DNA from: a virus
IMG/VR virus record: IMGVR_UViG_3300048686_000358
Coordinates: 1 to 55,193 of that record
Length of the DNA stretch: 55,193 nucleotides
Strand: one strand, 5' to 3'
This document shows positions 2,470 through 27,361 of the stretch, one piece after another. The notes under the pieces were generated by a model that worked only from the letters and a program-made list of their open reading frames with translations, did no database searches and was not told the DNA's origin. Within the stretch, counting starts at the first letter, position 1, and every line of letters starts with the position of its first letter. The position numbers and the translations under genes are program-made.

Positions 2470-3381
2470 TTATTTCTTATCTTTCAAAGTTTTTACAAAG
2501 GTATCAACTCTTTTTGTTGCATTATCTATTCCAAATATATCTATTTCGGTGTATTCTGAAACGAAATCTTGGTTTACTTGCTCATTTTTCATATATGATA
2601 AAACAAATTCTTTCCAAAAATTGTAGGCTTCAGTATTCGTGTGTTGCGGCAATGTAAGTAGAAATCCATCATCGAATTGCCAATTATTATATTTTTTTGC
2701 AACGTTAGGTACATGTGAAAATTCTTTCCAATTATTTCTCGCTATAATAGCAATTAAACGTAATTTTCCTGAATCTACGTGTTGCTTTATTATAGAATAA
2801 GGCACAACAATAAAATCAACATGCCCACCTATAGCATCTTGTACTGCAGGTCCACCACCTTTATATGGTACTAAAACAGGTTGAATAGATATTTTGTTTG
2901 CATTAAAAATTTGTTCCCAAATCGTTTTTTGACTAGGGCTACCAAATGCAAATGTCTTTTTATTATCACCAGATTTTAGTGTTTTTTCTAGACTATCGAA
3001 ATTTGTAATATCATTATTAGGATGTGTTGCAATAGCCATAACACTACCTTTAATTACAGAAATATGATCAAAATTATAATTAGGATTATTTAGTTTATGT
3101 GTTGCTACAGTTGCAACTGTAGCGAACCCGATAGTATATCCATTAGGTTTTGATTCTGCAACCTCATTGGTTCCTATAAGTCCGTCTGCACCTCCCTTGT
3201 ACATCGGAACGATAGTAATATTGCGTTGGTCGGCGTATTTCTGAAAATGTCGGAAGGCTATGTCAGTGCCTCCACCGGGTGCGAAAGGTATAACAGCCTT
3301 TATAGGTTCTTTAGTTGGATTAAACTGTGCGTGTGCTGTTAATGCAAAAAATGCAGTTAACATTAAAATTAATTTTTTCAT
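2470..3381 (-). CDS. Bug/TctC-family periplasmic substrate-binding protein
   Basis: This 303-residue protein belongs to the Bug (Bordetella uptake gene) family of tripartite tricarboxylate transporter receptors. Residues 1-18 are a signal peptide ending AHA. The family hallmarks are present: PIKAVIPFAPGGGTDI near residue 30, where the two lobes bind carboxylates, and PYKGGGPAVQDAIGGHVDF around residue 175. Length matches the family (about 300-330). The family captures small carboxylic acids, nicotinate or aromatic acids for membrane partners TctA and TctB, which are absent here, so the phage protein would have to serve a host permease. An AAGGAG site precedes the ATG. It is the first gene after the tmRNA terminator. 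The family is greatly expanded in beta-proteobacteria, supporting such a host. Confidence 0.88.
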   Translation of the reverse strand: MKKLILMLTAFFALTAHAQFNPTKEPIKAVIPFAPGGGTDIAFRHFQKYADQRNITIVPMYKGGADGLIGTNEVAESKPNGYTIGFATVATVATHKLNNPNYNFDHISVIKGSVMAIATHPNNDITNFDSLEKTLKSGDNKKTFAFGSPSQKTIWEQIFNANKISIQPVLVPYKGGGPAVQDAIGGHVDFIVVPYSIIKQHVDSGKLRLIAIIARNNWKEFSHVPNVAKKYNNWQFDDGFLLTLPQHTNTEAYNFWKEFVLSYMKNEQVNQDFVSEYTEIDIFGIDNATKRVDTFVKTLKDKK

Positions 3382-5653: not shown

Positions 5654-8600
5654 TTATGAATTGAAATTGTTTGGGTCGTATTTATTTTTGAAATATTCAC
5701 GCAGCCATGCCCAGTCATAACTTAGACGCAGTTTTTCCATATCCCCGTTTACTTCTTCGTAGTATTGGACAGCATCATAAGCACCCCTAGTACTGTATTC
5801 ACCGTACATGCCATTTCCCACAGTTAACCAAATATCCAAGCGTTCTATACTCTTGTCCGAAATATCTGCTCTTAGTTTCAATGCTTCTCTAAATGCTGTA
5901 CGCCAGGTTGTCCATTCATCTGTATTGTATGCAGCAACACCCGAATTCAACTCTACAACTTCGTGTGCATCGTCAAGTGTGAAGTCAAGTCCATGACCTA
6001 TGTTGTTAAGCGTAATCTTTTTATTATACGCAATCATAGCCTGGTGTCCATACTCTAATCCGTTAACTGGATTTGTAGCATGGAAGATATAGTGCTTAGG
6101 AATCTGTAATCTATCAGGTTGCCAAGCCCAATCAAATTTTTCATTCACTTTGAGTTTAGCAAACACAGTAAACATCCAGGGTGTTTCGCTTGCTTCTGCT
6201 GCCGCATGATAGGCTGCTACACGACCATTCACCCCATCAACACGCACAACACGGTTGCGTAGTCCTTTGGTCACTTTCAATAAATGTTCATAGTTTTCTT
6301 CAGCACCTGTTTCACCGTTGCTTAAGAATACAATATCTAATGGTTTACTTTGTGCTAACTTAGTACTGCGACTAATATATGGGTAATCATAAAGTTCTTC
6401 TTCAACAAAGTCTTGTGCTTCTTTCGGAACAATAATTCGTGTACCACCTGTACTAGTAATAACAATATTTTTAGTTTCAGGAGTCCACAAACTAATAGGT
6501 TCAGTATCAACAACATCGTGTTTTTCTGTTTGAAAGATAGCATACGGGAAATTAAATTCTGTTTTAAGTTTTTCAGTATGTGTATCGGTATCTACTTCTA
6601 TGACTGGCGCGGGCAAACGCTTCACTCGTTGATGCTGATTATAATTAATCTTTTCATAATCCTCCATCAATAGCATATCATCTATTAATTCTCTGAGTTT
6701 GTTCACATCTACTAGGAAGGTATCACCGAATTTTTGTTTATCGCTAGGAAAAACATGCAATTGATCTTTTGCAAAAGGATCACATATATAACTAAAGTCA
6801 AAATCAGTATAGTCACAAACACTACTGCAAACCCAAATATAGTGTTCCTTCTTTTGTTCTAATCTCTTTAACACTTCTCTAAATGTGCGTAGATAACTAT
6901 GATTATATTCAATAACTGTTATAGATTTGTTTTGTATTTTATTGCGTAACGCTAATGCTACACTATCTATTTCTACATTGCCATGGTCTACTAGAATCAC
7001 ATCGTATAGACAACTAGTCGCTACTGCTGTTTTTCGTTTTACAAAGTTTAAATTTCCTAAATGTTCAATAACTTTGACATACTTTGTATCTTCAGGAAAA
7101 CTTGTCTTATTAACCATATATGTAGTACCCCAATGACTCCATTGCGTACCAAACACGTGAACCATACGCATTTGCCATGGGCTAGGATAATAGTCAAATT
7201 CAAAGTTACTATAGTCTAGTTCGCTATTCAGTATCCAGCATAAATTTGTAGTAGACTTGTTGATACACCGATTGATTGTATCAACCCAACTATTCAAATA
7301 GCGTGTCTTAGTGATGTTGCCAAACTTCCCACGTAAATTTTCAAATCTTACTTGTGATTCTATATTACCCCTATCTACATAGAAAATATCAATTTTGGTT
7401 TTCAGTTCAACTAACTTATCTTCAATGTAGTTGATGTCACGATAACCTTTTTGCCACATTTTGCCGTTAACAAAATATGTTTGTGTATTAATGTTATCCC
7501 TACTACCGAATGCATTTATATGATATACATTCTTTTTATCAGGTATCCATTTAAAATCAAATCCACTATAATCGATTTCAGGGTTTAAGGCCCAAAAGAT
7601 TTCACCTTCATGTTTTCTAATTAGGTCTTCTAATGTGGTGCTAATATAATATTTAGGAAACTCTAATTCTTCTAGTATGATTTCTTTGCGTTCTAAATGA
7701 ACAATGGTCCCGTCATTACCCGGTGTCATATATCTTGGACCATCTTTTTCATCAAGTAGTGTACCAAACTGATATATGTATGGCGGGCTAGTATCATCTG
7801 GATGCCAACTAAAATCAAACTTTGTAACATCGACACCATCAGGTATTACCCAATGTGTCATGTCGGGTAGAATAGTAGCAACAGGGTCTGATACAAATTT
7901 ACTATCTATTGCTCCCTCTACAGTATAAGTGGGACCATGCGTTTTAGCCCATTGTGTACCAAACTGGTAGATGAACGGGGGATCCTTAGGATTTGGTCTC
8001 CATGTGTAATCAAAATCTTTTATTAATTTTGTGTTGTTAAACAACTCCGGTTTACTTGCTAGTGTAGCAACAACTTGGTCAATAAACTTTTCTTGCGTAG
8101 GATTGCCCCTATGCAACTTGACAGTAGGCATAATGGTGCCAGGATACTGAGTATTTCCAAACACGTATGTATAATCAGGGTCAGTTGGATCAGGTCTCCA
8201 ACTATAATCAAAATCACTAATTTCTTCTATTGTTTCCCAGCCTTCTGTGTAGGGCGCTACCGTTGCGATAATCTCGCCGACGTAGGATTTTTGTGTTGCG
8301 CCTGGTACATGATATTCTATAGTTGCTTCTAATTCAGCGGGGTTCCATTGATTACCAAACACATAGATATAAGGTTCACTGGTTTCGTTAGGATGCCAAC
8401 TATAATCAAAATCAACAATGTCAATTAAAACTTTGTAATTCGTTTTATTAGGAAGTTTTATTGCATGTGATATATTTCTGTCTACGTACTTTATCTCCGT
8501 AGCACCAGGTGCAACATATCTAGGTCCACCGTCTCGTTGCCATTGAGTTCCAAATTGCCAAATTAAATCAGGTTCTAGTGGGTCTGGTCTCCATGAGAAA

Positions 8601-10573
8601 TCAAAACTTTCTTTATCTATATTATCAGGTATTTCCCAGCGTTCCCATTCAGGTAATACATCAACATCGTTATCCATGTACTTTATTTCTGTTGCTCCTG
8701 GTACATGATATTCTACGGTTGGCTTATACTTGTTACTAATATACTTGTTACCCCATCTGTAAATATAGGGAGGATCTTTAGGGTTAGGCTTCCAAGTAAA
8801 ATCAAACTTAGTTTCATCAATAGGTTGAGTAATTATCCAATTAGACATGTCAATATCAAGCGTAGCAATGATATCATTTACAAATTTAATTTTAGTCGCA
8901 CCCTCAACATGATATTCAATAGTTGGCATTATCTCAGCAGGATACTGGTTGTTACCAAATACATAAATATAAGGTTCTTCTGTATCATCGGGATGCCATG
9001 TAAAATCAAAGTCTTTGATTTTATAATTTTCCAATATTGTAAACTTTGAAATATCAGATACTTTTTTTGCTGTCAACAAATCAATGTATTTTATATCGCT
9101 ATTAGCAGTTGCATTATGTGCTATAAACTTAGGTCCTCCAGTTTTTTGCCATTGTGTACCGAACTGATAAATATACGGCTTATCATCAATGTCAGGGTGC
9201 CAGCTAAAATCAAAATCAGTTGTATCAATGTTTTCAGGTATGATCCAGTGAGTTTTATCCGGTAACGCTACCGCAGTTACTGCATCAATATATTTTACTT
9301 CCGTTGCACCTTCTGCAACAAACTTAGGACCGCCTGTCCTACTCCATTGACTGGGAAACTGATAAATGTAGGGAGGTTCTGTTGCATCAGGATGCCAACT
9401 AAAATCAAATTTCTTTTGATCCACATTACGTGGAACTAACCAATTAGTAAATTGATATGGTATAACTGTTGCAACCTGTGTATCAATATATTTTATTTCT
9501 GTTGCACCCGATACAATATATCTAGGACCATTTGTTTTTTGCCATTGAGTAGGGAACTGATAAATGTATGGCGGATCATTGGGATTAGGTTCCCAACTAA
9601 AATCAAAACTTTGTTTTACAACATAGTCAGGTACTTCCCAATTATCCATTACGGGCAATCGTTTTGCCCTCACATCCATATATTTGTACTCAGTAGCACC
9701 TTCTACAACATATTGAACACTAATTCTATCTTCAGGTTTATTCCATTGATTGCCCCATGCATAAATGTATGGTGGACTAGTCGGATCAGGTACCCAACTA
9801 AAATCAAAACTCAAAGGATCAACATTGTCAAGTATTTCAAAATCTTGCGGTCTTGCAGCCAAACTAGGAGTAAAACTGTCTATATATTTGCGTTCGGTTG
9901 CCCCAGGCACATGATACTCAAGTGTTGGCATAATGCTTGCCGGATATTGATTGTTACCGAAAACATATATATAGGGTGGATCAGTTGGATCAGGTCTCCA
10001 ACTATAGTCGAAACCTATAACTTCATGTATATGCTTGAACAACATTGGCATCGGCAACAAATGTGCTATAATATCGTTTACATATTTTTTATCTGTTGCA
10101 CCGGGCACTTTATATAATACAGTAGGCATAATTGTACCAGAGTACCACTCATTGCCAAACACATATATGTAGGGTGGATCACCGGGATCAGGATGCCACT
10201 TGAAATCAAACTTATCTTTTTCAATATATTCTACAATTTCCCAACAACTGTTAACTTCATCTTTCATGGGAATAGGGTCAACATCGGCCCTATAAATCAT
10301 AACTTCACTATCATTTTTAGAGCATAGCCACGTACCGCTATCTTTTTGATACGTGCTAGGCCATACATTGTTATGGTCTTCAGCCCATACATCTTCGTCG
10401 GGCAGGAAATCGAAGTCCCAATCCCAATCAAAATCTCTATAATCGCAATGTTCGTTGATTATCCAAAAGTGCTCAGTAGTTGCGAGGCGGCGAGCCTCTT
10501 GCAAGTTGTCTACTTTTCTTTCTCTTGGATGAACATTGGGTTTTTCACCATAATAAAATACATCTCGTAGCAT
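5654..10573 (-). CDS. 1,639-aa tandem-module protein with glycosyltransferase-like C-terminal domain
   Basis: Residues 122 to about 985 contain 13 modules of about 66 residues, each opening FDFSWxPDPxxPPYIYxFG and continuing GPxYxVxGATExKYID and WxIPxNID. Three degenerate modules follow (about 1005-1330). Residues 1410-1639 are a full-size domain related to the 316-aa protein at 26411-27361 (shared VDGV.G..AAH.AAAEAS, NPVNGLEYG/NNINGLRYG, W R..FRE). The modules appear to be cut-down copies of that domain: the C-terminal KFDWAWQPD...HYIFHATN aligns with the repeat core. The DGDN metal motif of the 316-aa protein is missing here (VFAKLK instead), so even this domain may not be an active transferase. 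There is no signal peptide. Function is unknown; scaffold, glycan-binding protein or modification substrate are possibilities. It is the last gene of the biosynthetic-looking block. Confidence 0.85.
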   Translation of the reverse strand: MLRDVFYYGEKPNVHPRERKVDNLQEARRLATTEHFWIINEHCDYRDFDWDWDFDFLPDEDVWAEDHNNVWPSTYQKDSGTWLCSKNDSEVMIYRADVDPIPMKDEVNSCWEIVEYIEKDKFDFKWHPDPGDPPYIYVFGNEWYSGTIMPTVLYKVPGATDKKYVNDIIAHLLPMPMLFKHIHEVIGFDYSWRPDPTDPPYIYVFGNNQYPASIMPTLEYHVPGATERKYIDSFTPSLAARPQDFEILDNVDPLSFDFSWVPDPTSPPYIYAWGNQWNKPEDRISVQYVVEGATEYKYMDVRAKRLPVMDNWEVPDYVVKQSFDFSWEPNPNDPPYIYQFPTQWQKTNGPRYIVSGATEIKYIDTQVATVIPYQFTNWLVPRNVDQKKFDFSWHPDATEPPYIYQFPSQWSRTGGPKFVAEGATEVKYIDAVTAVALPDKTHWIIPENIDTTDFDFSWHPDIDDKPYIYQFGTQWQKTGGPKFIAHNATANSDIKYIDLLTAKKVSDISKFTILENYKIKDFDFTWHPDDTEEPYIYVFGNNQYPAEIMPTIEYHVEGATKIKFVNDIIATLDIDMSNWIITQPIDETKFDFTWKPNPKDPPYIYRWGNKYISNKYKPTVEYHVPGATEIKYMDNDVDVLPEWERWEIPDNIDKESFDFSWRPDPLEPDLIWQFGTQWQRDGGPRYVAPGATEIKYVDRNISHAIKLPNKTNYKVLIDIVDFDYSWHPNETSEPYIYVFGNQWNPAELEATIEYHVPGATQKSYVGEIIATVAPYTEGWETIEEISDFDYSWRPDPTDPDYTYVFGNTQYPGTIMPTVKLHRGNPTQEKFIDQVVATLASKPELFNNTKLIKDFDYTWRPNPKDPPFIYQFGTQWAKTHGPTYTVEGAIDSKFVSDPVATILPDMTHWVIPDGVDVTKFDFSWHPDDTSPPYIYQFGTLLDEKDGPRYMTPGNDGTIVHLERKEIILEELEFPKYYISTTLEDLIRKHEGEIFWALNPEIDYSGFDFKWIPDKKNVYHINAFGSRDNINTQTYFVNGKMWQKGYRDINYIEDKLVELKTKIDIFYVDRGNIESQVRFENLRGKFGNITKTRYLNSWVDTINRCINKSTTNLCWILNSELDYSNFEFDYYPSPWQMRMVHVFGTQWSHWGTTYMVNKTSFPEDTKYVKVIEHLGNLNFVKRKTAVATSCLYDVILVDHGNVEIDSVALALRNKIQNKSITVIEYNHSYLRTFREVLKRLEQKKEHYIWVCSSVCDYTDFDFSYICDPFAKDQLHVFPSDKQKFGDTFLVDVNKLRELIDDMLLMEDYEKINYNQHQRVKRLPAPVIEVDTDTHTEKLKTEFNFPYAIFQTEKHDVVDTEPISLWTPETKNIVITSTGGTRIIVPKEAQDFVEEELYDYPYISRSTKLAQSKPLDIVFLSNGETGAEENYEHLLKVTKGLRNRVVRVDGVNGRVAAYHAAAEASETPWMFTVFAKLKVNEKFDWAWQPDRLQIPKHYIFHATNPVNGLEYGHQAMIAYNKKITLNNIGHGLDFTLDDAHEVVELNSGVAAYNTDEWTTWRTAFREALKLRADISDKSIERLDIWLTVGNGMYGEYSTRGAYDAVQYYEEVNGDMEKLRLSYDWAWLREYFKNKYDPNNFNS
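7621..10210 (-). repeat. 13 tandem coding repeats of about 199 bp
   Basis: The repeat core encoding FDFSW appears on the plus strand as variants of ccaactaaaatcaaa at a mean spacing of about 199 bp from 10210 to 7819. Units differ at many positions, so the array is old or selected for variety. Adjacent units alternate between two styles, VFGNQ..P...MPT.EYH and QFGTQWQ..GGP.Y, arguing for block duplication or recombination. Confidence 0.9.
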
Positions 10574-10584
10574 GTATCTACTTA

Positions 10585-11208
10585 TTAATCCAAGGCAATA
10601 TTAAAATTTTTTGTTTGAGGTATGTTGTTTTTGATTTGAGTAACATACAGGTCAAATAAAAAATCAGCCAATTGAACATTAGATTCCGGTAAAAAATGAT
10701 TGTAAGACTGTTCGGTGTTTATATCTTTATTCATTAACGATTTTAAATCAACAACATTTTTATACCCATTACAAATATTGAAACCTAATTTTAATGATTC
10801 TTTGAAGCAAAATAAATGTATTACCTTTCTATTGGCTAGCATATCATTTAATTCATGAAAATATTTTGTCATAGCCCATTTATGAAAATCCTCATCATAT
10901 ATATGTTTATAATAAACCTCGTTCGCATGAAATTCATCAGGGATATCTTCGGGGAAACATGAAGTAATTTTTGTACTTAAAATTCTTAATGGTTCTGTGT
11001 GACAAAAGATAAAAAGTTCTGTACGATTAAAGTCAATGCTTTTCTTATACTCATATAAATTTTGTCTTGCGTACCACCATGATTTAGCAGGATATCCCTG
11101 ACCAGTAAGAGTCAAATTTAATTTATTGGCAAGTATTAAGGGCCAGTGATATGCAGGATTTTCACGCCAAAAACAAAAACTGTCTCCAGTTATGTAAATA
11201 TTAGACAT
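10585..11208 (-). CDS. SGNH-hydrolase-like protein
   Basis: This 207-residue protein starts with the block I motif ITGDSFCFW (Ser10 as nucleophile). A glycine block GQGYPAKSWW and a C-terminal NHFLPESN, whose histidine could be catalytic, are also present. SGNH enzymes remove or transfer acyl groups on sugars and other polymers. There is no signal peptide, so action is probably in the cytoplasm. Its ATG overlaps the stop of the carbamoyltransferase gene by one base. The DxxH pair typical of block V is not clear, so catalytic competence is uncertain. Confidence 0.7.
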   Translation of the reverse strand: MSNIYITGDSFCFWRENPAYHWPLILANKLNLTLTGQGYPAKSWWYARQNLYEYKKSIDFNRTELFIFCHTEPLRILSTKITSCFPEDIPDEFHANEVYYKHIYDEDFHKWAMTKYFHELNDMLANRKVIHLFCFKESLKLGFNICNGYKNVVDLKSLMNKDINTEQSYNHFLPESNVQLADFLFDLYVTQIKNNIPQTKNFNIALD

Positions 11209-12692
11209 TAACTCAATACTTTGACGTTATAAAGTTTTTCAAAACGATCTGCATCGAACCTATCATTAACCATAGGTTCACCGCGTATGTTTAATGACGT
11301 ATTTAATAGCATCGGGCATTCTGTCAACACATACCATTTTTCTAAAAGTTCTCTTATTCCACTTCCATCTTTCGGTACAGTTTGAACACGGCTAGTGCCG
11401 TCATGATGAACAATAGCAGGAAACAAATTAGGTTTATTACATTTTGCAATCACTTGCATATATCTACTATTATTCCAACCTTTTGGCATGTCAAAATATT
11501 TGTGTACATGTTCTTCTAATATGATAGGAGCAAAAGGTCTAAACTTCTGTCTGCGTTTAATTTCATTTACTTTATCCTTTATTTCGTTGCCTCTAGGATC
11601 AGCCAATAAACTACGGTTGCCTAACGCTCTGGGACCAAACTCAGCACGACCACTTGCTACACCTACTATTTTTTCAGTTTGTAATACATCAAGTATACGA
11701 TTTACTGGATAAGGACCATCTATATTGTGTCCAAGAAACGCATCTTTCCATTGAAGTTTTTTACCATACCCCAATGCTGCTGCACCTAAACTACTACCAC
11801 AGTCGCCGGGGTTAGGCATAATCCATATATGTTGAAAATAATCACCTAACATTCTATTAGCAAGACAATTAAGTGCGACTCCGCCACCATAGACAATGTT
11901 GCTACTATTTCCTAACATTCTTGCTTTGGCAAATATTTCTTTAAGTAAATCTTCTAGTACAACTTGTGCCGAACTTGCAATGTCCATTGGATCGGCATTT
12001 GGTAAAAAATCATCGCCAACACCAATATGTAAATTTTGCTTAAAAGTTAAATGACGTTGGTCTTCTATCAATAGATTATGCATCTCATCAGAGTGAATGG
12101 GTTTACCATATGCTGCCATGCCCATTAAAATATATTCTTCATCCATTGGATGCAATCCTACTTTATGTGTCATTGCACTATAAAATAATCCCAAACTATT
12201 TGGATATTGTTTACTATATATTTTTTTATATTGTGCTATACCATGATGGTCATATCCAGCATTCCATATAGTGACTGTATCAAATTCTCCTATAGCATCA
12301 ATAATTACAACTGTTGCTTGACGAAAGGGACTTGTTTGAAAACTTGCGGCGGCGTGGCTTAGATGATGACTATGCTTATAAACTTTTTTCTCTCTAAGCA
12401 TTCCATGAATATCATGCTCTAACAAATGCCCATCAAATAGATTTCTAAATCTAGGTTTCTCACCTGATCGTATTTGCCTCAATACTTTTAATAGTGGACG
12501 CTCATAATAATGTAATTCATAATCACCAATAATATGTTTGAGTGCATCATTAACAATGCCATGACACAAATTCTTATCATGCTTATGCTTGCTGTATCTT
12601 TCACTATGACTGGCAAATAATATTTCACCTGTGTTAGACACAACACTAACACCGGCATCGTGAAACCCATTACTTAATCCAATATAATTCAT
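11208..12692 (-). CDS. NodU/TobZ-family O-carbamoyltransferase
   Basis: This 494-residue enzyme should transfer a carbamoyl group from carbamoyl phosphate to a hydroxyl of a sugar or nucleoside through carbamoyl adenylate. The Kae1-like N-terminal domain opens with YIGLSNGFHDAGVSVV and has the metal motif HHLSHAAAS near residues 107-115, followed by VVIIDAIGEFD. VYGGGVALN is the second ATP-binding loop. The C-terminal YrdC-like half has ASGRAEFGPRALGNRSLLADPR near 345-365 and FRPFAPIILEE. It is somewhat shorter than typical members (about 570). Relatives make carbamoylated antibiotics, Nod factors and, in some phages, modified DNA bases. Here SGNH and radical SAM neighbours suggest a sugar or nucleotide target. 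Confidence 0.9.
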   Translation of the reverse strand: MNYIGLSNGFHDAGVSVVSNTGEILFASHSERYSKHKHDKNLCHGIVNDALKHIIGDYELHYYERPLLKVLRQIRSGEKPRFRNLFDGHLLEHDIHGMLREKKVYKHSHHLSHAAASFQTSPFRQATVVIIDAIGEFDTVTIWNAGYDHHGIAQYKKIYSKQYPNSLGLFYSAMTHKVGLHPMDEEYILMGMAAYGKPIHSDEMHNLLIEDQRHLTFKQNLHIGVGDDFLPNADPMDIASSAQVVLEDLLKEIFAKARMLGNSSNIVYGGGVALNCLANRMLGDYFQHIWIMPNPGDCGSSLGAAALGYGKKLQWKDAFLGHNIDGPYPVNRILDVLQTEKIVGVASGRAEFGPRALGNRSLLADPRGNEIKDKVNEIKRRQKFRPFAPIILEEHVHKYFDMPKGWNNSRYMQVIAKCNKPNLFPAIVHHDGTSRVQTVPKDGSGIRELLEKWYVLTECPMLLNTSLNIRGEPMVNDRFDADRFEKLYNVKVLS

Positions 12693-14392: not shown

Positions 14393-15577
14393 TTATGTTT
14401 TAATAGGAATTATCTTCCCGCTTCGTGTATATAACTTATCGATAGCAGAAATTTCTCCACAAGTTTCAACACAATAAAGTAACTTACCATTTTCTACAGT
14501 ATCTGCTTTCCATCCATCTAAGAAAAACTTACCAAAATATGGACCGGTCAATATGTCTATCATACTATTTTGACGCAAATCAAATTTATCTAATCCAACT
14601 CCCTGCATTTTTTGATTAAATTGCCAACGAGAATAAGAAGTAGTAAACTGTCCAAATATTCCACCTAAGAAACAGCAAGGCAGTAAATGTCCTGTTGCTG
14701 AAACATATATTTCTTGATATCCTCTTTCTATTGACTTGCAATTTATATCAGACCTTTTTGCTAAGTCTTTGCTGAAATCAGTTAGTGTGGGTATTGACGA
14801 ATGCCTATATGTAAAATCAACCTTATGACCTACGTCAGGATTAACTTTTGGTCCTTCGTGATTTGCTGGCCATATTGAATATTCAAAATTACCTTCTTTG
14901 TCATAAACACTTAAGCCTTTCATTACACCGTCGTATTCCCCGAATCCCATTGGATTCTTAACTAAGAAAACAAACCCTAACTCATCTGCTAATTTTCTAG
15001 CCTCTTCAACTTGGTGTTGGTTATGTTCAAAAATTAACCATTCCCATATGCCCCTGCCATGTCCGCCGTTTTCACTGTATGCTTTCATGTTAGCATATAA
15101 TTTTTCCCACTTAACACCTCTACGATAGATGTGATTTGTATCTTCTAATCCATCTACACTAAACACCACACCACTCATGCTAAAGACATGTCTATCTTTA
15201 GGCTCGGGCATGGATGCAAAAAATTTACCTAGTTCAGCCCAATGACGAGGGCTACGCATTCCACCATTCGTTCTTACTTGAAACGCATAGTGTTTTTGTT
15301 TTGTACTTTGTTTAAAATATTCTAGTATAGGGAGTAAATCTCTAGCAGTTCCGGCATCACCTAAGTTTCCGCAAAAATTAATACCTATAACATTCTTTAG
15401 TATTTCTTCGGGAAACATTGCCTTAATATCATCTAAGTATAGTTCAGTCAATTCTAATTCAGGTGCAACAGGGCCACCCGCTAAATTTCTACTACATGCA
15501 GGACAACTAGCATTACACCTCGAACTTAATTCAATATGCAATCTTCCTATTTGTGGTATATCATACATTTTGTCCAT
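14393..15577 (-). CDS. Radical SAM protein with SPASM-like C-terminus
   Basis: This 394-residue enzyme has the cluster motif CNASCPAC at about residues 20-27 (CX3CX2C), which would hold the 4Fe-4S cluster that cleaves S-adenosylmethionine. The C-terminal third has more cysteines (INCKS, LLPCCFLGG, LYCVETCGE) like a SPASM auxiliary cluster domain. Unlike the eight upstream genes it lacks the N-terminal cysteine domain, so it represents the ordinary SPASM layout. SPASM enzymes modify peptides or sugars. It abuts its upstream gene with a one-base overlap. The substrate is unknown. Confidence 0.85.
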   Translation of the reverse strand: MDKMYDIPQIGRLHIELSSRCNASCPACSRNLAGGPVAPELELTELYLDDIKAMFPEEILKNVIGINFCGNLGDAGTARDLLPILEYFKQSTKQKHYAFQVRTNGGMRSPRHWAELGKFFASMPEPKDRHVFSMSGVVFSVDGLEDTNHIYRRGVKWEKLYANMKAYSENGGHGRGIWEWLIFEHNQHQVEEARKLADELGFVFLVKNPMGFGEYDGVMKGLSVYDKEGNFEYSIWPANHEGPKVNPDVGHKVDFTYRHSSIPTLTDFSKDLAKRSDINCKSIERGYQEIYVSATGHLLPCCFLGGIFGQFTTSYSRWQFNQKMQGVGLDKFDLRQNSMIDILTGPYFGKFFLDGWKADTVENGKLLYCVETCGEISAIDKLYTRSGKIIPIKT

Positions 15578-16830
15578 TATCGTAATCCTATATATTTTGC
15601 TAAGTTGTCTGGTTTGTTTCTGCGTGTCGTGTACTGTTCAAAAAATACATCGCTGTCATTTCTTAATTGTAATTGATTATCTTTAACAAAACCTTCATCT
15701 AAAAACTTAATTAATCTATTGCAATGTTCATGCTCTACAGGTAATAAATCATCATTTATTAATGCAAAGAACTTGGTATACTTATTAATATAAAAATCAC
15801 GCTCACTTCTAGTCAAGCAAGCAAAACCTTGAAAATCTGGCTTATCAACCATATTGATAGAGATATATGGCTTAACTTTAGTGCGCTTACGAATATTGAT
15901 AATATCATGGTACATTTGATCTAATGATTGTAATGCGATTGCACTTACTGTAGTACTGATACTAAACTCTTTTACTGTACTGTTACCTAATCGTTCTATA
16001 TTGTCTAACCATTCATTATAGACCATACCCTCACGAATAAATTCGGCAGTCTCGCCCGCGCTTTCATTGCTAATATTCATGCGTAGATTAGTTAATCCCC
16101 TAATCTTATCAAAAAATCTATCCATGACTGTGGGTTTTTGACAGAGGTTGCTATGTATAACACACTCAATATTTGGGTTCATCTCTGTCATCATTTCAAA
16201 CACACGAAACACTTCCTCATGCATTAATGGTTCGCCACCTGATACACGGATAGATTCTAAACTATCAGCAATACTAGTAAACCACTCCCAGAATAAATTC
16301 ATATCAGGAGGGTCAATCATTTCATTGATCTCATCCATATCTTTCTGATAGTGTCTGCGGTCATCAGTGATGATACCTTTATACACGCCGTTGACTCTGA
16401 TATCATTCATCCAACTTGTGCTGAATTGTGGGCTGCAATAACTACATGCTAGGTTACATGTATTCTGAAATGCTAACTCTAATGCTTTAGGTTTGAATAC
16501 ATAATTTGGATTCTTATAATCTTCGGCACTTAAATGGTCTTTAAAACTTAAACTCTTGCGTGTTCTATCACTACGCAAGCCTAAGTTTTCATAACGCCAG
16601 CAACTATCACATGCAGGTGGCTGTTCACCTGCTAGCATTCGTTTTTGTTGTTCACGCTTTTCTGCAGGGTTATAAAAGGTGTCTACTGTATTGCCTACTT
16701 GAATGAAGGGCGTATAATGGCAACTGGCAATCTTACCTGAGTAAACCCAGATACTTGCCTCATGAAACTTTGCAAGACAAAAAGTTTTACTTGTCTCATC
16801 ACGAATTTTAAATAGTTTCTTTTCATCCAT
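15577..16830 (-). CDS. Radical SAM protein with N-terminal twitch-like cysteine domain (type A)
   Basis: This protein is 417 residues. The N-terminal region has TFCLAKFHEASIWV, ASCHYTPFIQ and PACDSCWRYENLG, four or more cysteines that look like an auxiliary-cluster ('twitch') domain placed before the catalytic barrel. The radical SAM motif CNLACSYC is near residues 124-131 and the SAM-binding GGE is in RVSGGEPLMHEE. Type A is defined here by AK(W/F) after the first cysteine and SC(H/Y)xP at the second. It overlaps by one base with both neighbouring genes. Confidence 0.85.
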   Translation of the reverse strand: MDEKKLFKIRDETSKTFCLAKFHEASIWVYSGKIASCHYTPFIQVGNTVDTFYNPAEKREQQKRMLAGEQPPACDSCWRYENLGLRSDRTRKSLSFKDHLSAEDYKNPNYVFKPKALELAFQNTCNLACSYCSPQFSTSWMNDIRVNGVYKGIITDDRRHYQKDMDEINEMIDPPDMNLFWEWFTSIADSLESIRVSGGEPLMHEEVFRVFEMMTEMNPNIECVIHSNLCQKPTVMDRFFDKIRGLTNLRMNISNESAGETAEFIREGMVYNEWLDNIERLGNSTVKEFSISTTVSAIALQSLDQMYHDIINIRKRTKVKPYISINMVDKPDFQGFACLTRSERDFYINKYTKFFALINDDLLPVEHEHCNRLIKFLDEGFVKDNQLQLRNDSDVFFEQYTTRRNKPDNLAKYIGLR

Positions 16831-18143
16831 TAATAATTAAACTCATCATCTAGTTTATTTTGTATTAAATAATATTCCATATTTTTGTGTTCTGGAAATA
16901 CTTCAAAAAAACTTTCATTTCTTATACTGTCTAGTTTTTTAGTTATTTTGCTAAAAAACTTTAAAGTATGTGTAAGCGGTGATGCTCCTGCATCTGAATA
17001 CATAAACTTTATAGCATTTTCATATCTACTTACCGTGTTATGATATATCCCATAAGTTTTCAACCACTCTATTTGTTTTAAGAATGCTTCTTCAATTTCA
17101 CGCTTTTTCCAGTCAGGTATATTTTTTAAGCAATAATAGGGAGGTGTGTCTAACGGATTAATCATAATGTTATCTGGCTCTATCAATCCTAACTCTACCC
17201 ATTCTCTGTGAAATTCTATTAAATTAAATGCATTAGGCCAACTCAATGTAAATGATATATTAAACTTGACATGCGGACATTCACGCATCATTAGTTTTCT
17301 ATTTTCTACAACTGTGTTCCAATCAGTACCGCTACGCCAGTATTCAGCCTTTTTATGATTACCGTCTAAACTAGCATTGACACTCACATTCTTGAATTCT
17401 TTCCAATATTCAATAACATTGGGATAATTTTTCAATTGAAAATTACTAAAATTAGTATTATACCTTATCTGTACATCAAAATTTTCTAGTGTAATGAGTT
17501 GATTTAGAACTTCATAATGCTCTTTTTGCATCAGTGGTTCACCACCTGCAAAATAAATTATTTTTGCAGTAGATAAATGTGGTAATATTTCTTCTAGTGC
17601 TTGTTCTTCGGTCTTACCGGGATATTGAAAGCCATCATCAATTTCACTCCTCTCAGTTCGATTGTATAGTTTTCTATGATCCAGTATCCAACTAGTACTA
17701 AAATGAGGGGCACAACTACGACATTTTAAATTACAAAGATTGTTGTAACGAACATCTATATAAAATAATTTATGTTCTTCAACTGTACCATCTGGTTTAG
17801 TATTTGCTACAATATCTTGTATATCTTGATTGTTGTTAAAAAATTCTTCGTTGTATGCATTATAAAATGCATCACCTATTTCAGCACGATTATTACATAT
17901 TCCGCAGTTTTGATGCTGTTCCCCGTTGAGAAACTGTAGGCGCATCTTGCGTGTCTTTTCATTATTCCATATTTCTTTTAGTGTGTTTTTTTTGAGATTA
18001 CCAATTTCATTAACACCATTATAAACGCAACAAGGTTTTACATCGCCCGGTGGACCGACATATTGATGTATCCATGGAAATATACAAAATGTCTTGCTTT
18101 TTTTAGCCATCTCAAGAGGATTAAACTCATTCTGCGTTGTCAT
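16830..18143 (-). CDS. Radical SAM protein with N-terminal twitch-like cysteine domain (type B)
   Basis: This protein is 437 residues. The N-terminal cysteine domain reads TFCIFPWIHQYV, VKPCCVYNG and QNCGICNNRAE. The radical SAM motif CNLKCRSC is near residues 136-143, with APHFSTSW after it, and GGE is in YFAGGEPLMQKE. Type B is defined here by PW after the first cysteine and a CC pair. The C-terminal end LDSIRNESFFEVFPEHKNM is nearly shared with the 438-aa protein upstream, so the two are recent paralogues. The start overlaps the upstream gene by 17 bases. Confidence 0.85.
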   Translation of the reverse strand: MTTQNEFNPLEMAKKSKTFCIFPWIHQYVGPPGDVKPCCVYNGVNEIGNLKKNTLKEIWNNEKTRKMRLQFLNGEQHQNCGICNNRAEIGDAFYNAYNEEFFNNNQDIQDIVANTKPDGTVEEHKLFYIDVRYNNLCNLKCRSCAPHFSTSWILDHRKLYNRTERSEIDDGFQYPGKTEEQALEEILPHLSTAKIIYFAGGEPLMQKEHYEVLNQLITLENFDVQIRYNTNFSNFQLKNYPNVIEYWKEFKNVSVNASLDGNHKKAEYWRSGTDWNTVVENRKLMMRECPHVKFNISFTLSWPNAFNLIEFHREWVELGLIEPDNIMINPLDTPPYYCLKNIPDWKKREIEEAFLKQIEWLKTYGIYHNTVSRYENAIKFMYSDAGASPLTHTLKFFSKITKKLDSIRNESFFEVFPEHKNMEYYLIQNKLDDEFNY

Positions 18144-19443
18144 ATGGTTTTAGTTTTTCATGCAATTCTGGAAACACTTCTTCAAATGTTTCATTTCGTA
18201 TACTATCTAACAATTTGGTTTCTCTATAAAATACAGGGATAAGGTTAGTCTCATCTTTACTGTTCATCATATTTATAGCATTTTGCCAGTGCTCCATATA
18301 GATATCATAATGAAAATCATGCTCTTGTGTTTCTTCGAGCCAAGCCATATGTTTCTGTATTTTTTCTGTAACTTCTTCTTTAATGTCCGGTGGCAATGCT
18401 GTTGTTCTCAACCAAACAGGATCATGCAGTGTGTTCAAATAAAATCCAAAGTTTGTACCATTCCCTCGTTTGAACAATTCGCTATCACACATGTACCTAT
18501 GTAAATCTACAGACTCGCTTGCATTTAATAAACTATATACGGCACTTACACCATAGTCAGCATTAGGTAAATATTCTTTACAAGTTTTGATCCAGTCTAG
18601 AGCCTTTTCCCACTCAAAACCTTTTCTGATATATTCGCCTTTTGCACCAATGGCATCAATACTGCCAACCATAAAGACATTATGAAAGTTTTTCAGCATT
18701 TCAAATGCATGATAATCTTTTAAAGTGTATGATGTTAAATTAGTATTATATCTAATTTTAACTGTGGTTTTATTCATATCAATCAATAACTGCAAGAAAG
18801 CATAGTGATCTTCTTGCATCATAGGTTCGCCACCACTAAAGTGTATTTCCGTATATGGATCTACCATGTTAACTAACTCTACTAAATCATCCTTCATATG
18901 TGTGACTGTTTCATTAGTAAGTAATGTCACGGGTTTATTAGTAGCACGACCTAATTTAATTTCATCTTGTATCCAACTTGTACTTAGACCCGGTCCACAC
19001 GTTCTGCATTTCATGTTGCATAAGTTATTGAAAATTAAATCAATTGTGGATATCTTTATATCCTCAACAGAACCATCTTCATTAGTATGTTTTACAATAT
19101 CTTTGTATTTGTCATAACCATTTTGTCCAGTATGATCGGGGAAATTTCTATACCGGTCATTGAATCGTTGGCGCATACTAATACCGTTCATATCTTCTTC
19201 AGACCAACAACGGTGGCATGCCGTAGGCTTTTTGCCATTCAAAAAATCATAGCGTAGTTTATTCCATTTTTCACTATGAAATATGTCGCTTATTTTTTCA
19301 TCATTCCAATTACCTAATTTGTGGCTACTATGATGGCTATAGTAACAACAAGGCATAACCTTACCATCAGGTTCAGTATGAATTTGAAGCCATGGAACAC
19401 TACAAAAATGTTCTGGAAAATTATCTATGTCTTTATCAATCAT
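18127..19443 (-). CDS. Radical SAM protein with N-terminal twitch-like cysteine domain (type B)
   Basis: This protein is 438 residues. The N-terminus has HFCSVPWLQIHTEPDGKV, MPCCYYSHH and TACHRCWSEEDMNG; the radical SAM cluster is CNMKCRTC near residues 141-148, followed by GPGLSTSW, and GGE is in HFSGGEPMMQED. The end RETKLLDSIRNETFEEVFPE matches the downstream 437-aa paralogue. It overlaps the upstream gene by eight bases. Family features are clear; the substrate is unknown. Confidence 0.85.
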   Translation of the reverse strand: MIDKDIDNFPEHFCSVPWLQIHTEPDGKVMPCCYYSHHSSHKLGNWNDEKISDIFHSEKWNKLRYDFLNGKKPTACHRCWSEEDMNGISMRQRFNDRYRNFPDHTGQNGYDKYKDIVKHTNEDGSVEDIKISTIDLIFNNLCNMKCRTCGPGLSTSWIQDEIKLGRATNKPVTLLTNETVTHMKDDLVELVNMVDPYTEIHFSGGEPMMQEDHYAFLQLLIDMNKTTVKIRYNTNLTSYTLKDYHAFEMLKNFHNVFMVGSIDAIGAKGEYIRKGFEWEKALDWIKTCKEYLPNADYGVSAVYSLLNASESVDLHRYMCDSELFKRGNGTNFGFYLNTLHDPVWLRTTALPPDIKEEVTEKIQKHMAWLEETQEHDFHYDIYMEHWQNAINMMNSKDETNLIPVFYRETKLLDSIRNETFEEVFPELHEKLKPYDNAE

Positions 19444-20746
19444 GTGTCAACCATAAGTTTAATTCAGGGAAAGTCTGACTAAAGTTTTTGTTTCTTCTTT
19501 GGTCATACTCATGTACAAATATTAAAAATTGATTTTTTCTCCAGCGTCTTTCTTCGTCAGTCATGGTGGTTTTTCTGGCTTTCCAGTAATCATATACCAT
19601 TTGCCATGTCTCATGTTCGACACTAGTTAATTGATTACCATACATTTGAATGATTCTATTCGTTCTTTCAAAATAATTATCACAGTAATCAGGTAATATT
19701 CTTAAATCAAATTGTTTAGGATCAGTTAATCTAGCGCAGTTGAACATAATATCTACACCATCTGCTCTAAGTTCTACAACTTTTTCTAAGAACAATTGAA
19801 AATTAAAAATACTCATCAATCCAAAAGTTACCATAATACGAATAGGAACTTTAAACATCGTGCTTACTTTTCGTACAGTTTGTTCCCATGTTTCAATATC
19901 TAATCCGTCTCTAATATATTCTGCTTGAGGTCCCCAAGTATCCATACTAGTATAGACTTCTAGTCCTTTAATCGTTTTTGCATTTAATAATGCTGTCGCT
20001 TTTTCAAAGAACATATTTAAGTTCTTTTCAGGTACACATAGGTTGGTATTAACAACTAGTGTTAAGTTAGGATTATGGTTTTCAGCAACATAATCAAGTA
20101 ACTTCATAAAGTTTCTAGTTGCAAGCGGTTCACCGCCTGTGATTCTTAAATATCTTAAATCTTTATATGCATCGGGTAACCATTTCCAAAAAGCATCAAT
20201 GTATGGATTATCATCTTCGGGAATCATATCATGCATTTTATCTTTATGCACAGTTGGATCTTCTACGGGATAACTTCCATATTTTCTAACTTCATGTTCC
20301 CAGCGGCTACTTTGTCCCGGACTACAATAACTACATGCAAAATTGCAGGTATTTGCAAAACTTAACTCAAGGTAAGACGGGTTAATATGCTTTTCGTATG
20401 GATTATTTAATATTTCGGCTCTGCGTTCAATAGCCCATGGTTCATTAGTAAATCGTTTTCTATCACTTATAGCATTAGGATTGATAGCCTCCATATTAAA
20501 GCAGTAATAGCATTCATTGGGTTGTTGCCCTGACAACATTTGTCTGCGTTGGTCTAATTTATGACCTGTATTGTGTAATGTACTGGGCGTACTTTTAACT
20601 TGCTCTAAATCCCAACGATGAATGGGCGGGTGATAACAACTGTGATTTTCTCCCATGCCGAAATGCATGGTAACCATTAACCATTTTGCGGCGCAAAATG
20701 AATGACTTATTTCATTTGGAATAGGGGTGATTGGTATTGTATTCAT
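19436..20746 (-). CDS. Radical SAM protein with N-terminal twitch-like cysteine domain (type A)
   Basis: This protein is 436 residues. The N-terminal domain has SFCAAKWLMVTMHFG, HSCYHPPIHRW and NECYYCFNMEAIN. The radical SAM motif CNFACSYC is near residues 133-140 with SPGQSSRW following; GGE is in RITGGEPLATRN. The C-terminal FVHEYDQRRNKNFSQTFPEL recurs in the 508-aa and 521-aa proteins, marking type A. The ATGA overlap with the upstream gene is four bases. Confidence 0.85.
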   Translation of the reverse strand: MNTIPITPIPNEISHSFCAAKWLMVTMHFGMGENHSCYHPPIHRWDLEQVKSTPSTLHNTGHKLDQRRQMLSGQQPNECYYCFNMEAINPNAISDRKRFTNEPWAIERRAEILNNPYEKHINPSYLELSFANTCNFACSYCSPGQSSRWEHEVRKYGSYPVEDPTVHKDKMHDMIPEDDNPYIDAFWKWLPDAYKDLRYLRITGGEPLATRNFMKLLDYVAENHNPNLTLVVNTNLCVPEKNLNMFFEKATALLNAKTIKGLEVYTSMDTWGPQAEYIRDGLDIETWEQTVRKVSTMFKVPIRIMVTFGLMSIFNFQLFLEKVVELRADGVDIMFNCARLTDPKQFDLRILPDYCDNYFERTNRIIQMYGNQLTSVEHETWQMVYDYWKARKTTMTDEERRWRKNQFLIFVHEYDQRRNKNFSQTFPELNLWLTHD

Positions 20747-21921
20747 ATAAAGTTACTTAGTTCAGGAATATAGTCTTTGTAATTTAAGTTTCTTGCTTTA
20801 TCAACTGCTGTTATAAACTCTTTTGCTTTAGTCAGTAATTGAGGTTCATAACTGACATGCAACTTAGCAAACAAATCATTTCTTTGATATTCGGGAAGTT
20901 TATTACTGTAGTGATTTCTTAATTCTTCTTTATAAAAGTCAGGTAAAGTTGCCAAACTTAAATAATCAGGATAAAGCACATAATTATGATATGGTGTTTT
21001 GCTATAGTTTGATTGTAACCAATCACTTAATTCTGTTAAATTATGTATGTTTAACATGCTTACCGTTTGCGTTACGTGCCAGTCAACATTTGATAATTGA
21101 TTAAGTTTATTAATACTACTAACAGTTTGATCCCATTGCGTCGGATATCTAATATAATAGTTTCGCAACCCGACATCATCAATACTAGCATTAACTGTAA
21201 CTTTCTTAAACGGTTCCCATAATTTAATTAGTTGGTCTGGTATATCCATCATGTTTAGACTATACACAAGATGTACATTTTCTGCAACGTTTAAGTTAAT
21301 AAGATATTTTAAATATTCAAAGTGTTGTTTTATAAGTGTAGGTTCGCCACCGTTAATATAAATTTCTTCAACAAATTTTGATTTGTGTGCTAGGTCAAAA
21401 TAAAATTCATCTTTTTCAAACCATTTGAAATTTTCCAATGGACGTAGTTTAAACCAACTTAAGTCTTGTGATATTTTCTTTTCATCGGGATACCATTTAC
21501 TTGAACTATAACTGTTACAAGTTAAGCAGGCATTGTTGCACACATTACCCAAACGTAATTCTATGTAAATTAAATTAATATCATCAAGTTTTGCTTTTTG
21601 TTCAAGTTTGGGGATAATGTGTGCCCAACGCTCATTTTCATATTGTCTTTTACTTTTAATACCCTTATCTTCATCACTCCAGCAACCTTCACACTCAATT
21701 GGTCTTTCTCCATTAAGCATTTTTTGTCTGACCTCTATGAACTTTTCACTATTCATAATGTCAGATATGTTATCATTATCTAATGAAACAAGACTTTGTG
21801 ATCCTGTTTTTTTAGCCCAACTTATGGCATCAGTATGATTACTTCGGCAGCAAAGACTAGCACCGCCGTTTGGGTGTGTGGCAAGATGCATCCACGGCAA
21901 TACACAGAGTGTTTTACTCAT
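20743..21921 (-). CDS. Radical SAM protein with N-terminal twitch-like cysteine domain (type B)
   Basis: This protein is 392 residues, the shortest of the eight. The N-terminus reads TLCVLPWMHLATHPNGG, ASLCCRSNH and IECEGCWSDEDKG. The radical SAM motif CNNACLTC lies near residues 127-134, followed by NSYSSSKW; GGE is in YINGGEPTLIKQ. The end NYKDYIPELSNFI replaces the usual VFPEL tail but keeps its PEL. It is coupled to both neighbours by four-base overlaps. Confidence 0.85.
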   Translation of the reverse strand: MSKTLCVLPWMHLATHPNGGASLCCRSNHTDAISWAKKTGSQSLVSLDNDNISDIMNSEKFIEVRQKMLNGERPIECEGCWSDEDKGIKSKRQYENERWAHIIPKLEQKAKLDDINLIYIELRLGNVCNNACLTCNSYSSSKWYPDEKKISQDLSWFKLRPLENFKWFEKDEFYFDLAHKSKFVEEIYINGGEPTLIKQHFEYLKYLINLNVAENVHLVYSLNMMDIPDQLIKLWEPFKKVTVNASIDDVGLRNYYIRYPTQWDQTVSSINKLNQLSNVDWHVTQTVSMLNIHNLTELSDWLQSNYSKTPYHNYVLYPDYLSLATLPDFYKEELRNHYSNKLPEYQRNDLFAKLHVSYEPQLLTKAKEFITAVDKARNLNYKDYIPELSNFI

Positions 21922-23315
21922 CCTATGCTATCCCACCATTCTAGTAGTTTTGAATTTGTAGAGTATATACTACGCATAGTAACCTTTTCATCCCCACGAA
22001 TCTTTTCTAAATGTTCTACCCATCGTTTACCATTTAGTCTAGCAGTCTTATAGGTGTCAGGCCATTCTTCTTCATGTGTTTTACGACTATTCTTCAATGC
22101 TTCTAAGTTAGCAATTAATTGACGTTGCTTCCATGTTGCTCTTGGCTGACAATATGCAATGATATCATCACACATTTCATTTAGTATTTCACGTGGCCAA
22201 CTAGTTGGACTCCACATAATATCAGGATGAAATGCAAAGGTAATCTTTGTAATGATTTCAACATCTAATTCAATACTCAAATCAAACAAGTCTTTTAAAC
22301 TGAACATACCAGGTGCGGTAATAGTCAAGTCTAGTTTCATTTTATCTTTGCCGCCCGGTAGTGCTAGGCCCTGCTTGAAGTTATCTAACCATTTATCCCA
22401 TTTAATACCTGTGCGAATGTACTCTACAATCTCGCCGGTGCCATCGATACTAGCACACATCATCCAGTCTTTATATTTGGGTAGATAATCATATAAGTTT
22501 TTGTCACCAAACTGAACGCGGCTTAGATTACTGTTGTAGCGCATATAGCAATTCTTATTACTGCCATTACGTAACATTTCTTCTAATGTCCACCAATGCA
22601 CATCATACATCAATGGTTCGCCGCCCACCCAATACATTTCTTCTACAATGCCGCGACTTACTGCATCACGGAATTCTGGTTCAACTACAGTCTGTTGAAA
22701 GTCTTGCATTGCTGACTTGATTTCAGGAACCATAAAAGGTTGATTCTTCGGAGTCCACATGTTGTGAACTTTCTTTTCTGTTTCCCATGTTGAACTTAAT
22801 TGTTCACCACACATACGACACTTGAAATTACATAGATTACTAAAACGATAATCAAAACTAATTGGCTCCATTGTTGTGTAACCAGTTTCGTCAGTTTTAT
22901 CAAATGCTTCTTGTATCTTATGCTTAAACAATGTACCGGTAAACCAACCTCGATAACTTTCACCTTCCATCAATAGATTGTTGTTACATACATCACATTG
23001 TGGTATGGCTTCTCCGCGCATTAACTTAACACGAATGTCACGCATATATGGACTGTTCCAATGTTCTTTTAGTGAAACAGGTTTATATGCATCTAATGAA
23101 GTTTTAGATTCTTTTACTTCGCCATACTTTTCATCGTTTGTTGAATCAATATATTGTTTTTGAAAACTATGCTCTTCCCGTGACGCACAACACATTCTGC
23201 GTTCACTTTGTGGGCTGATATAGGTATGAGTCCAAGGTGCCATACAGAACACCTTGTTTTTGCTATCAGGATGGGGCTTTGCATTATCGCCCCATAATGG
23301 TATAATTTTTGTCAT
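21918..23315 (-). CDS. Radical SAM protein with N-terminal twitch-like cysteine domain (type B)
   Basis: This protein is 465 residues. The N-terminus has VFCMAPWTHTYISPQSERR, MCCASREEH and PQCDVCNNNLLMEG. The radical SAM motif CNFKCRMC is near residues 161-168 with GEQLSSTW next; GGE is in YWVGGEPLMYDV. It is about 30 residues longer than its type B sisters, mainly in an insert before the second cysteine group and another before the GGE motif. It overlaps neighbours by four bases on each side. Confidence 0.85.
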   Translation of the reverse strand: MTKIIPLWGDNAKPHPDSKNKVFCMAPWTHTYISPQSERRMCCASREEHSFQKQYIDSTNDEKYGEVKESKTSLDAYKPVSLKEHWNSPYMRDIRVKLMRGEAIPQCDVCNNNLLMEGESYRGWFTGTLFKHKIQEAFDKTDETGYTTMEPISFDYRFSNLCNFKCRMCGEQLSSTWETEKKVHNMWTPKNQPFMVPEIKSAMQDFQQTVVEPEFRDAVSRGIVEEMYWVGGEPLMYDVHWWTLEEMLRNGSNKNCYMRYNSNLSRVQFGDKNLYDYLPKYKDWMMCASIDGTGEIVEYIRTGIKWDKWLDNFKQGLALPGGKDKMKLDLTITAPGMFSLKDLFDLSIELDVEIITKITFAFHPDIMWSPTSWPREILNEMCDDIIAYCQPRATWKQRQLIANLEALKNSRKTHEEEWPDTYKTARLNGKRWVEHLEKIRGDEKVTMRSIYSTNSKLLEWWDSIG

Positions 23316-24838: not shown

Positions 24839-24845
24839 ATCTTCC

Positions 24846-26411: not shown

Positions 26412-27361
26412 TACCAGCCTTCGATTTCACGAATCACATCCATTTCACGAACAAGAGGACCACGATTGTGTTTGTCTGCATTCAAGTGTCGTTTGAAAAA
26501 CTTACTTTGATCTTCGTTGAGTGTGCAGATAGGTAAACCAACTTTTAATATCAATTCTTTACCAAGCATTTCAGCAACGGTCATAGGTGTATTGTCTTTA
26601 TACTTTTCCCATAGTTCTTTTAAATTATCAAACCATTGCACTTCTTTAGGATCCCAATCGGTAAGCATAGTCATATATGTACCTAACCGTGCACCCATGA
26701 TAGCCCAATCACCGTTTTCTACATCTAAACCGACATTGTGCCATATCGTTAAATTGTTTAAATTTCTGCTTGCTACTGTTTCTTTAAATTCGGCAAGTTC
26801 TGGTTTCATACCTCGATTCAAGCACATCTTAACTCCCTCACGAAAGCCAGCACGCCATGCTTGAAATGGAGTATAGTTGGGATATGTCGTAGAATAACAA
26901 TCCCACATAGCCCAATAAATGTTATCGCTACTATCCAAACAAAAATCAACAGTAGTTTTATTATCGCCGTCGCTATGTTCATGTGTTTTCATGTTCATAA
27001 CATATTCTTTAGTCCATGAACTCATACCACCATTGCCGTAACGCAAGCCATTAATGTTGTTAATTGCTTTCCAACGATATTGTGCTTTTTTAAAGATAGG
27101 ATCAACTTCTCTAAAGTCAAGTTGTATATCAAAAAACTTTTCTTCAGGCATATTATCACCGTCAATTAAAATAAAGCGTTCAGTATCACTCGCCTCTGCA
27201 GCGGCTTTGTGTGCGGCGTCGCTGCCTTTTACTCCATCAACACGCTTTGCCCAAGGCACCATGTTCTTTACTTTGAGCCAAAATTCTTCTTTCTGCGGCT
27301 CATCGTAACTTAGATAAATGCAGTCTAAATCTGCTACATCAATAATATCATCATAATTCAT
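26411..27361 (-). CDS. Glycosyltransferase-like (GT-A) protein
   Basis: This protein is 316 residues. The N-terminal strand LDCIYLSYDEP, the VDGVKGSDAAHKAAAEAS helix and FILIDGDN near residues 62-69 are arranged as in GT-A nucleotide-sugar transferases, with DGDN as a DxD-type metal site. The middle (NNINGLRYGNGGMSSW, WRAGFREGVKM) is shared with the C-terminal domain of the 1,639-aa protein, which lacks the DGDN. It has no signal peptide and is probably cytoplasmic. The donor and acceptor are unknown. It is the last glycosyltransferase-like gene before the radical SAM series, overlapping both neighbours. Confidence 0.7.
   Translation of the reverse strand: MNYDDIIDVADLDCIYLSYDEPQKEEFWLKVKNMVPWAKRVDGVKGSDAAHKAAAEASDTERFILIDGDNMPEEKFFDIQLDFREVDPIFKKAQYRWKAINNINGLRYGNGGMSSWTKEYVMNMKTHEHSDGDNKTTVDFCLDSSDNIYWAMWDCYSTTYPNYTPFQAWRAGFREGVKMCLNRGMKPELAEFKETVASRNLNNLTIWHNVGLDVENGDWAIMGARLGTYMTMLTDWDPKEVQWFDNLKELWEKYKDNTPMTVAEMLGKELILKVGLPICTLNEDQSKFFKRHLNADKHNRGPLVREMDVIREIEGW

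Follow-up and report, generated by a model that had tools for sequence, protein, structure and literature searches.

A phage protein apparently composed of truncated, inactivated units of a GT-A-type glycosyltransferase

The protein REP (1639 aa) is encoded on the minus strand, at positions 5654–10573, of the IMG/VR virus record IMGVR_UViG_3300048686_000358 (55,193 bases, the entire stretch analyzed, referred to here as the window), and is composed of degenerate GT-A units. At the level of sequence and structural model, the origin of this protein from a GT-A enzyme, with loss of the DxD motif, is highly probable. Homology to a family bearing the active site, loss of the motif and purifying selection were all found and, since the C-terminal domain has also lost its DxD, REP is regarded as a pseudo-glycosyltransferase array, apparently dead. 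Our best guess of its function is a putative non-catalytic arm that binds glycans or an enzyme and works with the 316-aa enzyme GT316. The complete reading, which joins the origin of REP as a glycosyltransferase array to the mechanism proposed for the arm, is given a probability of about 40%.

The open reading frame starts with ATG and has no internal stops, and its coordinates and description in an initial annotation, made from the sequence, were correct. What that annotation missed was that residues 1–100 (10274–10573; all REP features lie on the minus strand) also form a larger unit, which is related to unit 16 (hhalign E 1.6e-28), has the AF2 order β1-β2-α-β3 and carries NEHCDY where the DxD segment would be. 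This unit is followed by 13 short modules of 65–68 aa each (residues 101–962, 7688–10273), delimited with a repeat profile and, for modules 1–3, an AF2 model. Unit 14 (residues 963–1062, 7388–7687) bridges the short modules and the larger units in the hhalign comparisons. Unit 15 (residues 1063–1190, 7004–7387; hhalign and AF2) corresponds to the N-terminal half of GT-A plus the DxD segment, here NSE, and unit 16 (residues 1191–1312, 6638–7003; hhalign) has the same layout with SSVCDY. A linker with some β structure in the AF2 model (residues 1313–1409, 6347–6637) leads to the GT2-like C-terminal domain (residues 1410–1639, 5654–6346), where FAKL replaces the DxD motif, as assigned from its identity to a 528-aa relative described below and from the tree.

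The core of the short modules was FD[FY]xWxP[DN]..P[PD]YIYxFG, with centers spanning residues 122 to 919; the three larger units that follow have their midpoints at residues 1005, 1124 and ~1254, and that of the C-terminal copy lies at residue 1480. Identity among the modules of the window averaged 40%, with a maximum of 56%. The sequence repeats far beyond chance: the 13 modules of about 66 residues had been judged not to be random low-complexity sequence, and a repeat profile indeed detected between 3 and 36 copies in each of the related proteins encoded at 57 viral loci, a tally that includes some larger units. Where a DxD would be expected, the larger units carry NSE, SSV, NPE or NEH. No tandem repeats were detected in the window at the DNA level, which argues that the array is old there. 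Two open frames on the plus strand (8705–9049 and 9452–10117), antisense to the array, are likely repeat shadows.

The number of modules per protein varied from 1 to 34 (74 proteins with both ends recognized, modules above 20 bits). In close relatives of the window protein, the modules at both ends were positional orthologues and gain or loss took place in mid-array; modules 7–9 were missing from L004 and modules 5–9 from L035. Two proteins with C-terminal domains 99.6% identical contained 9 versus 12 modules, their open frames (4569 versus 3954 bases) differing by 615 bases. Higher-order repeats of four modules were present in larger arrays, as in L047, with an identity of 0.64 at a separation of 4 versus 0.40–0.43 at separations of 1–3. 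In six pairs of relatives with estimable dS, dN/dS was 0.08–0.20 for the whole protein and 0.10–0.21 for the array. Hence, with low dN/dS and a changing module number, the array is kept by selection, although its length is labile.

The larger units had been proposed to form an intermediate series between the modules and the parent domain, and profile–profile comparison (hhalign) gave strong E-values at every link from the modules through units 14, 15 and 16. The short modules matched unit 14 with E 2.5e-13, unit 15 with E 1.1e-9 and unit 16 with E 4e-6; unit 14 matched unit 15 with E 1e-34, and unit 15 matched unit 16 with E 7.8e-26. The alignment of the repeat with the C-terminal domain was also recovered (E 7e-6), over a short stretch of about 21–22 columns. 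Likewise, the relation of the C-terminal domain to GT316 was evident over 218 residues at 29% identity (BLASTP E 3e-9) and against the profile of the 316-aa family (E 2.5e-14). The parent proposed in the initial annotation was therefore a true homologue, but the closest parent was a paralogous family with an intact DGD or DAD motif, not seen in the window. This intact-DGD/DAD family matched the C-terminal domain of REP with E 6e-43, the 316-aa family with E 3e-27, unit 15 with E 3.1e-10 over 85 columns, in which the D[GA]D segment faces NSE, and unit 16 with E 1.1e-5; its E-value with the short modules was 0.021. Column-shuffled and reversed controls gave E-values of at least 0.19. Since neither the intact-enzyme profile nor the GT-A structures (Foldseek) matched the modules directly, the membership of the short modules in the GT-A group, as traced by sequence, is transitive, through units 14–15.

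The loss of the active-site DGDN from the C-terminal copy was confirmed. DGDN was kept in 64/64 members of the 316-aa family and D[GA]D was intact in 34/34 domains of the intact-DGD/DAD family; the same segment of the REP C-terminal domain reads xAKL, with A in 41/42, K in 42/42 and L in 42/42 sequences. In the tree, the C-terminal domains of REP formed a single clade (100/100) on a long branch, adjoining the intact-DGD/DAD family.

The AF2 model of residues 900–1639 had a pLDDT of 87, and in it units 15 and 16 had the same order of elements as the C-terminal domain, β1-α-β2-α-β3(DxD)-β4-β5. When this model, which includes the C-terminal region (1410–1639), was compared as a whole with the PDB (Foldseek), the top matches were GT-A enzymes, the best being the chondroitin polymerase K4CP (2z86, E 1.9e-5), alongside LH3, SunS, WrtF, ArnC, GtrB and polypeptide GalNAc-transferases, all of them of the GT-A type. 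K4CP has two GT-A domains. REP 900–1639 shares its fold with the GT2-like enzymes K4CP, SunS, ArnC and WrtF, but differs from them in having no DxD in any unit and in consisting mostly of half-domains. The origin of the repeat from an enzyme fragment is thus supported by the chain leading from the modules to units 14/15, the intact-DGD/DAD family and the C-terminal domain, together with these structural matches.

The model of residues 1–330 reached a pLDDT of 84, with modules 1–3 mostly above 90, and each module appeared as four strands, the first of them short and placed at the W-x-I/V position. As modeled, the modules have lost β1-α-β2-α and retain just the part of the domain from the DxD site onward. 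The module-array model yielded a single meaningless match in the PDB (Foldseek, E 8.3). In BFVD it matched two proteins of uncultured Caudovirales phages with the same predicted module fold (A0A6J5L5L5 and A0A6J5LK21, 39% and 27% identity), both deposited as ‘Uncharacterized protein’ with no description of repeats or origin, and a GTA-type protein over 66 columns at a non-significant E of 4.8. The GT-A relation of the modules is thus drawn from the sequence links and the predicted order of elements.

The gap between the larger units and the enzyme was closed by the 528-aa protein encoded at L219:2564-4147 (record G025), in which a GT316-like domain is naturally fused, on its C-terminal side, to a second domain that keeps DGDA. 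This second domain was 31% identical to the C-terminal domain of REP over 226 aa, with DGDA opposite FAKL, and the DGD-bearing protein matched Pfam Glyco_tranf_2_3 weakly (E 7e-4, below cut-off). The intact-DGD/DAD family (INTERMEDIATES) spans stand-alone domains of ~225 aa, GT316-like fusions and multi-unit arrays. In the last of these, the sister arrays (L358–L436), 3–17 degenerate units of ~100 aa precede a C-terminal domain with intact DGD or DAD, and in the sister protein L263 the module profile matched a single unit (residues 38–101). Of the 35 sister loci with at least 900 nt upstream, 11 have a GT316-like gene that overlaps or abuts the array gene, and radical-SAM relatives are often found nearby. 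As read from these alignments, REP is the branch whose head lost the DxD and in which most units shrank to 66 aa.

Relatives of REP were found at a minimum of 573 loci in the viral contigs searched, the 57 loci mentioned above coming from an earlier search. Among 50,697 cultured-phage records, tblastn detected no relative of REP, of units 14–16, of GT316 or of the 528-aa fusion, and the positive control, a carbamoyltransferase (CarbT) encoded near REP, matched 138 records. Two scans of GTDB genomes found no cellular relative, and distant ones could be missed because the scans rest on short patterns. The sequence search of the PDB gave no relative. Pfam, NCBIfam and PHROGs all lacked a family for REP: nothing in PHROGs matched it, no Pfam match rose above cut-off and, therefore, it corresponded to no described structural family; the Pfam candidates DUF5820 and DUF7515 lay far below cut-off and were disregarded. 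Short modules were observed in five proteins without the REP C-terminus, all ending at or a few bases from the end of their stretch and thus probably truncated. GT-A enzymes and single pseudo-glycosyltransferase domains are already on record; the libraries and papers searched gave no account of an array of half-domains, nor of repeats of this kind. The nearest precedent was human LH3/PLOD3, whose middle GT-A (AC) domain is described as non-catalytic and possibly involved in substrate recognition (PMC6082870). As is probable for REP, a GT-A domain was retained beside an active one after losing its activity (PMC6082870), but LH3/PLOD3 has one complete domain and REP up to 34 truncated copies, and no sequence relation is claimed.

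The constant companion of REP was GT316, a GT-A-like protein with intact DGDN (26411–27361, minus strand). A separate GT316 gene, 73–78% identical to that of the window, was present in 29/30 records reached through REP alone (a set excluding four reached through GT316 as well); in the exception, G003, the sole match to GT316 was the C-terminal domain of REP itself. Conversely, REP occurred in 16/17 GT316 records, the exception being a record of 53.6 kb with GT316 as its sole match. GT316 was 73–79% identical across contigs, conserved far more than REP. The usual upstream neighbor of REP was the NodU/Nol-like CarbT (11208–12692, minus strand; Pfam Carbam_trans_N/C), found in 54/64 complete REP loci. 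The genes between GT316 and CarbT form the variable part of the cassette, at whose end REP usually lies, and differ by phage: in the window they are nine consecutive radical-SAM genes (14393–26411, minus strand; Pfam), some of them below the curated Pfam cut-off and several with a SPASM match (PF13186) that is N-terminal, before the radical-SAM domain. Elsewhere, a B12-binding radical SAM and a DegT aminotransferase, or an NTP-transferase and a GatZ/KbaZ-like protein, were found. The labels AmidT (amidinotransferase-like) and KdsC-like, given to other members of such cassettes, came from reading the sequence and were not confirmed by Pfam. An apparent dependence of module number on cassette type (raw Kruskal-Wallis P 0.004) was rejected, with P 0.5–0.75 within bins of C-domain identity; with relatedness of the C-terminal domain held constant, module number does not track cassette type, and the array is therefore linked to no specific product.

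Other genes were also recorded around REP. Genes of ~340–356 aa lie directly or closely downstream in several phages (..KVILFGQNEWAWF..; L003:13685-14710, L052:15251-16309 and 16275-17342), the gene being duplicated in L052 and the L003 member having no Pfam match. A protein of 6205 aa (32657–51274) has two segments matching phrog_10938 (virion structural protein). Two genes at the low end of the window, for a Gram-negative porin (Porin_4, E 1.4e-19; 715–1599) and a TctC-type receptor (E 3.2e-21; 2470–3381), suggest that the host of this virus is betaproteobacterial; relatives of the porin are also found on the flanks of REP in several other phages.

The ancestor of REP was most probably a GT2-like glycosyltransferase of the GT-A fold in aquatic T4-like phages. 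Its catalytic domain would have stayed at the C-terminus while degenerate copies piled up ahead of it, the first as units of ~100 aa without the last part of the domain and the later ones, in the REP branch, as 66-aa modules reduced to the strand of the former DxD site and the sheet strands beyond it; the C-terminal domain of REP has lost its DxD as well. The array may now act as a multivalent arm of variable length, holding a glycan acceptor or growing glycoconjugate and bringing it to the DGDN-bearing GT316 and the carbamoyltransferase encoded alongside. The product would be an unusual sugar or peptide modification, set by the variable cassette, on the surface of the host envelope or the virion. 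The evidence counted for this reading was the homology chain with its shuffled controls, the GT-A matches of the model, the clade of C-terminal domains, the intact D[GA]D of the parent family, the sister arrays, the 528-aa fusion, the linkage to GT316, CarbT and sugar genes (DegT aminotransferase, NTP transferase, GatZ-like), purifying selection and the LH3 precedent. Counted against it were the failure of the modules to match GT-A structures or the intact-enzyme profile directly and the independence of module number from cassette type. The GT-A fold has an acceptor side and a nucleotide-binding side, and binding of an acceptor was preferred because the modules keep the former and have mostly lost the latter. 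It is possible, though tentative, that this acceptor-side half became a self-standing repeat in 1–34 copies, a putative glycan-recognizing arm serving an active glycosyltransferase in trans.

A virion- or tail-associated fiber, with modules as spacers or receptor-binding units whose number sets length or avidity, is a doubtful alternative. REP shares its strand with baseplate and virion structural genes (phrog_10646, phrog_10938) and lies downstream of them, and fixed ends with a rapidly changing module number would suit a fiber. Furthermore, the island resembles the pelagimyophage/cyanomyophage host-recognition cluster, a variable island near tail genes that, in the part of the account available, mixes tail fibers with glycosyltransferases and radical-SAM cassettes; a REP-type repeat protein is absent from that part (PMC7029224). 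Nevertheless, the absence of a PHROG match, the position of REP among biosynthetic genes and the enzyme-like intact domain that ends the sister arrays, odd for a fiber, argue against it.

REP could instead be the acceptor itself, its modules being a polypeptide substrate decorated by the radical-SAM/SPASM proteins, CarbT and GT316. The nine radical-SAM genes of the window, the radical-SAM relatives near sister arrays and the W, D, P, Y and K positions, almost invariant across 613 modules, fit this idea; however, it is unlikely, as many REP loci lack a radical-SAM run in the upstream stretch examined, folding is predicted for the modules, in contrast to typical RiPP precursors, and this type of array also accompanies intact glycosyltransferase domains.

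That the C-terminal domain remains catalytic, using another or a metal-independent active site around the invariant A-K-L, with the array as its acceptor-binding arm, is quite improbable. Metal-independent GT-A enzymes exist, and this domain is very highly conserved (dN 0.01–0.05 in six pairs; invariant K); on the other hand, D[GA]D is retained in every copy of the parent family and of GT316, and the long branch to the clade suggests a changed constraint. Finally, a resemblance by chance or by convergence on an aromatic motif, with an unrelated repeat fused to the glycosyltransferase-like domain, could explain the short direct match of the modules to that domain and their E of 0.021 with the intact family, but is very improbable given the strong E-values and shared element order of units 14–16, which link modules and enzyme, and the module match in L263.

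Should REP be such a glycan-recognizing arm, it would represent a new class of glycan-binding repeat proteins built from modules, for which the whole enzyme, the ~100-aa unit and the 66-aa module survive as a series. REP and its relatives form an exceptionally full and still living record of the passage from enzyme to repeat protein, with the intact enzyme, the fused pair, arrays with intact heads, arrays with dead heads and the short modules all preserved. REP itself is found next to glycan and radical-SAM cassettes in hundreds of contigs from uncultured aquatic phages. If its modules bind glycans, they would constitute a natural modular lectin of a new kind and could help to reveal the products of these large phage islands.
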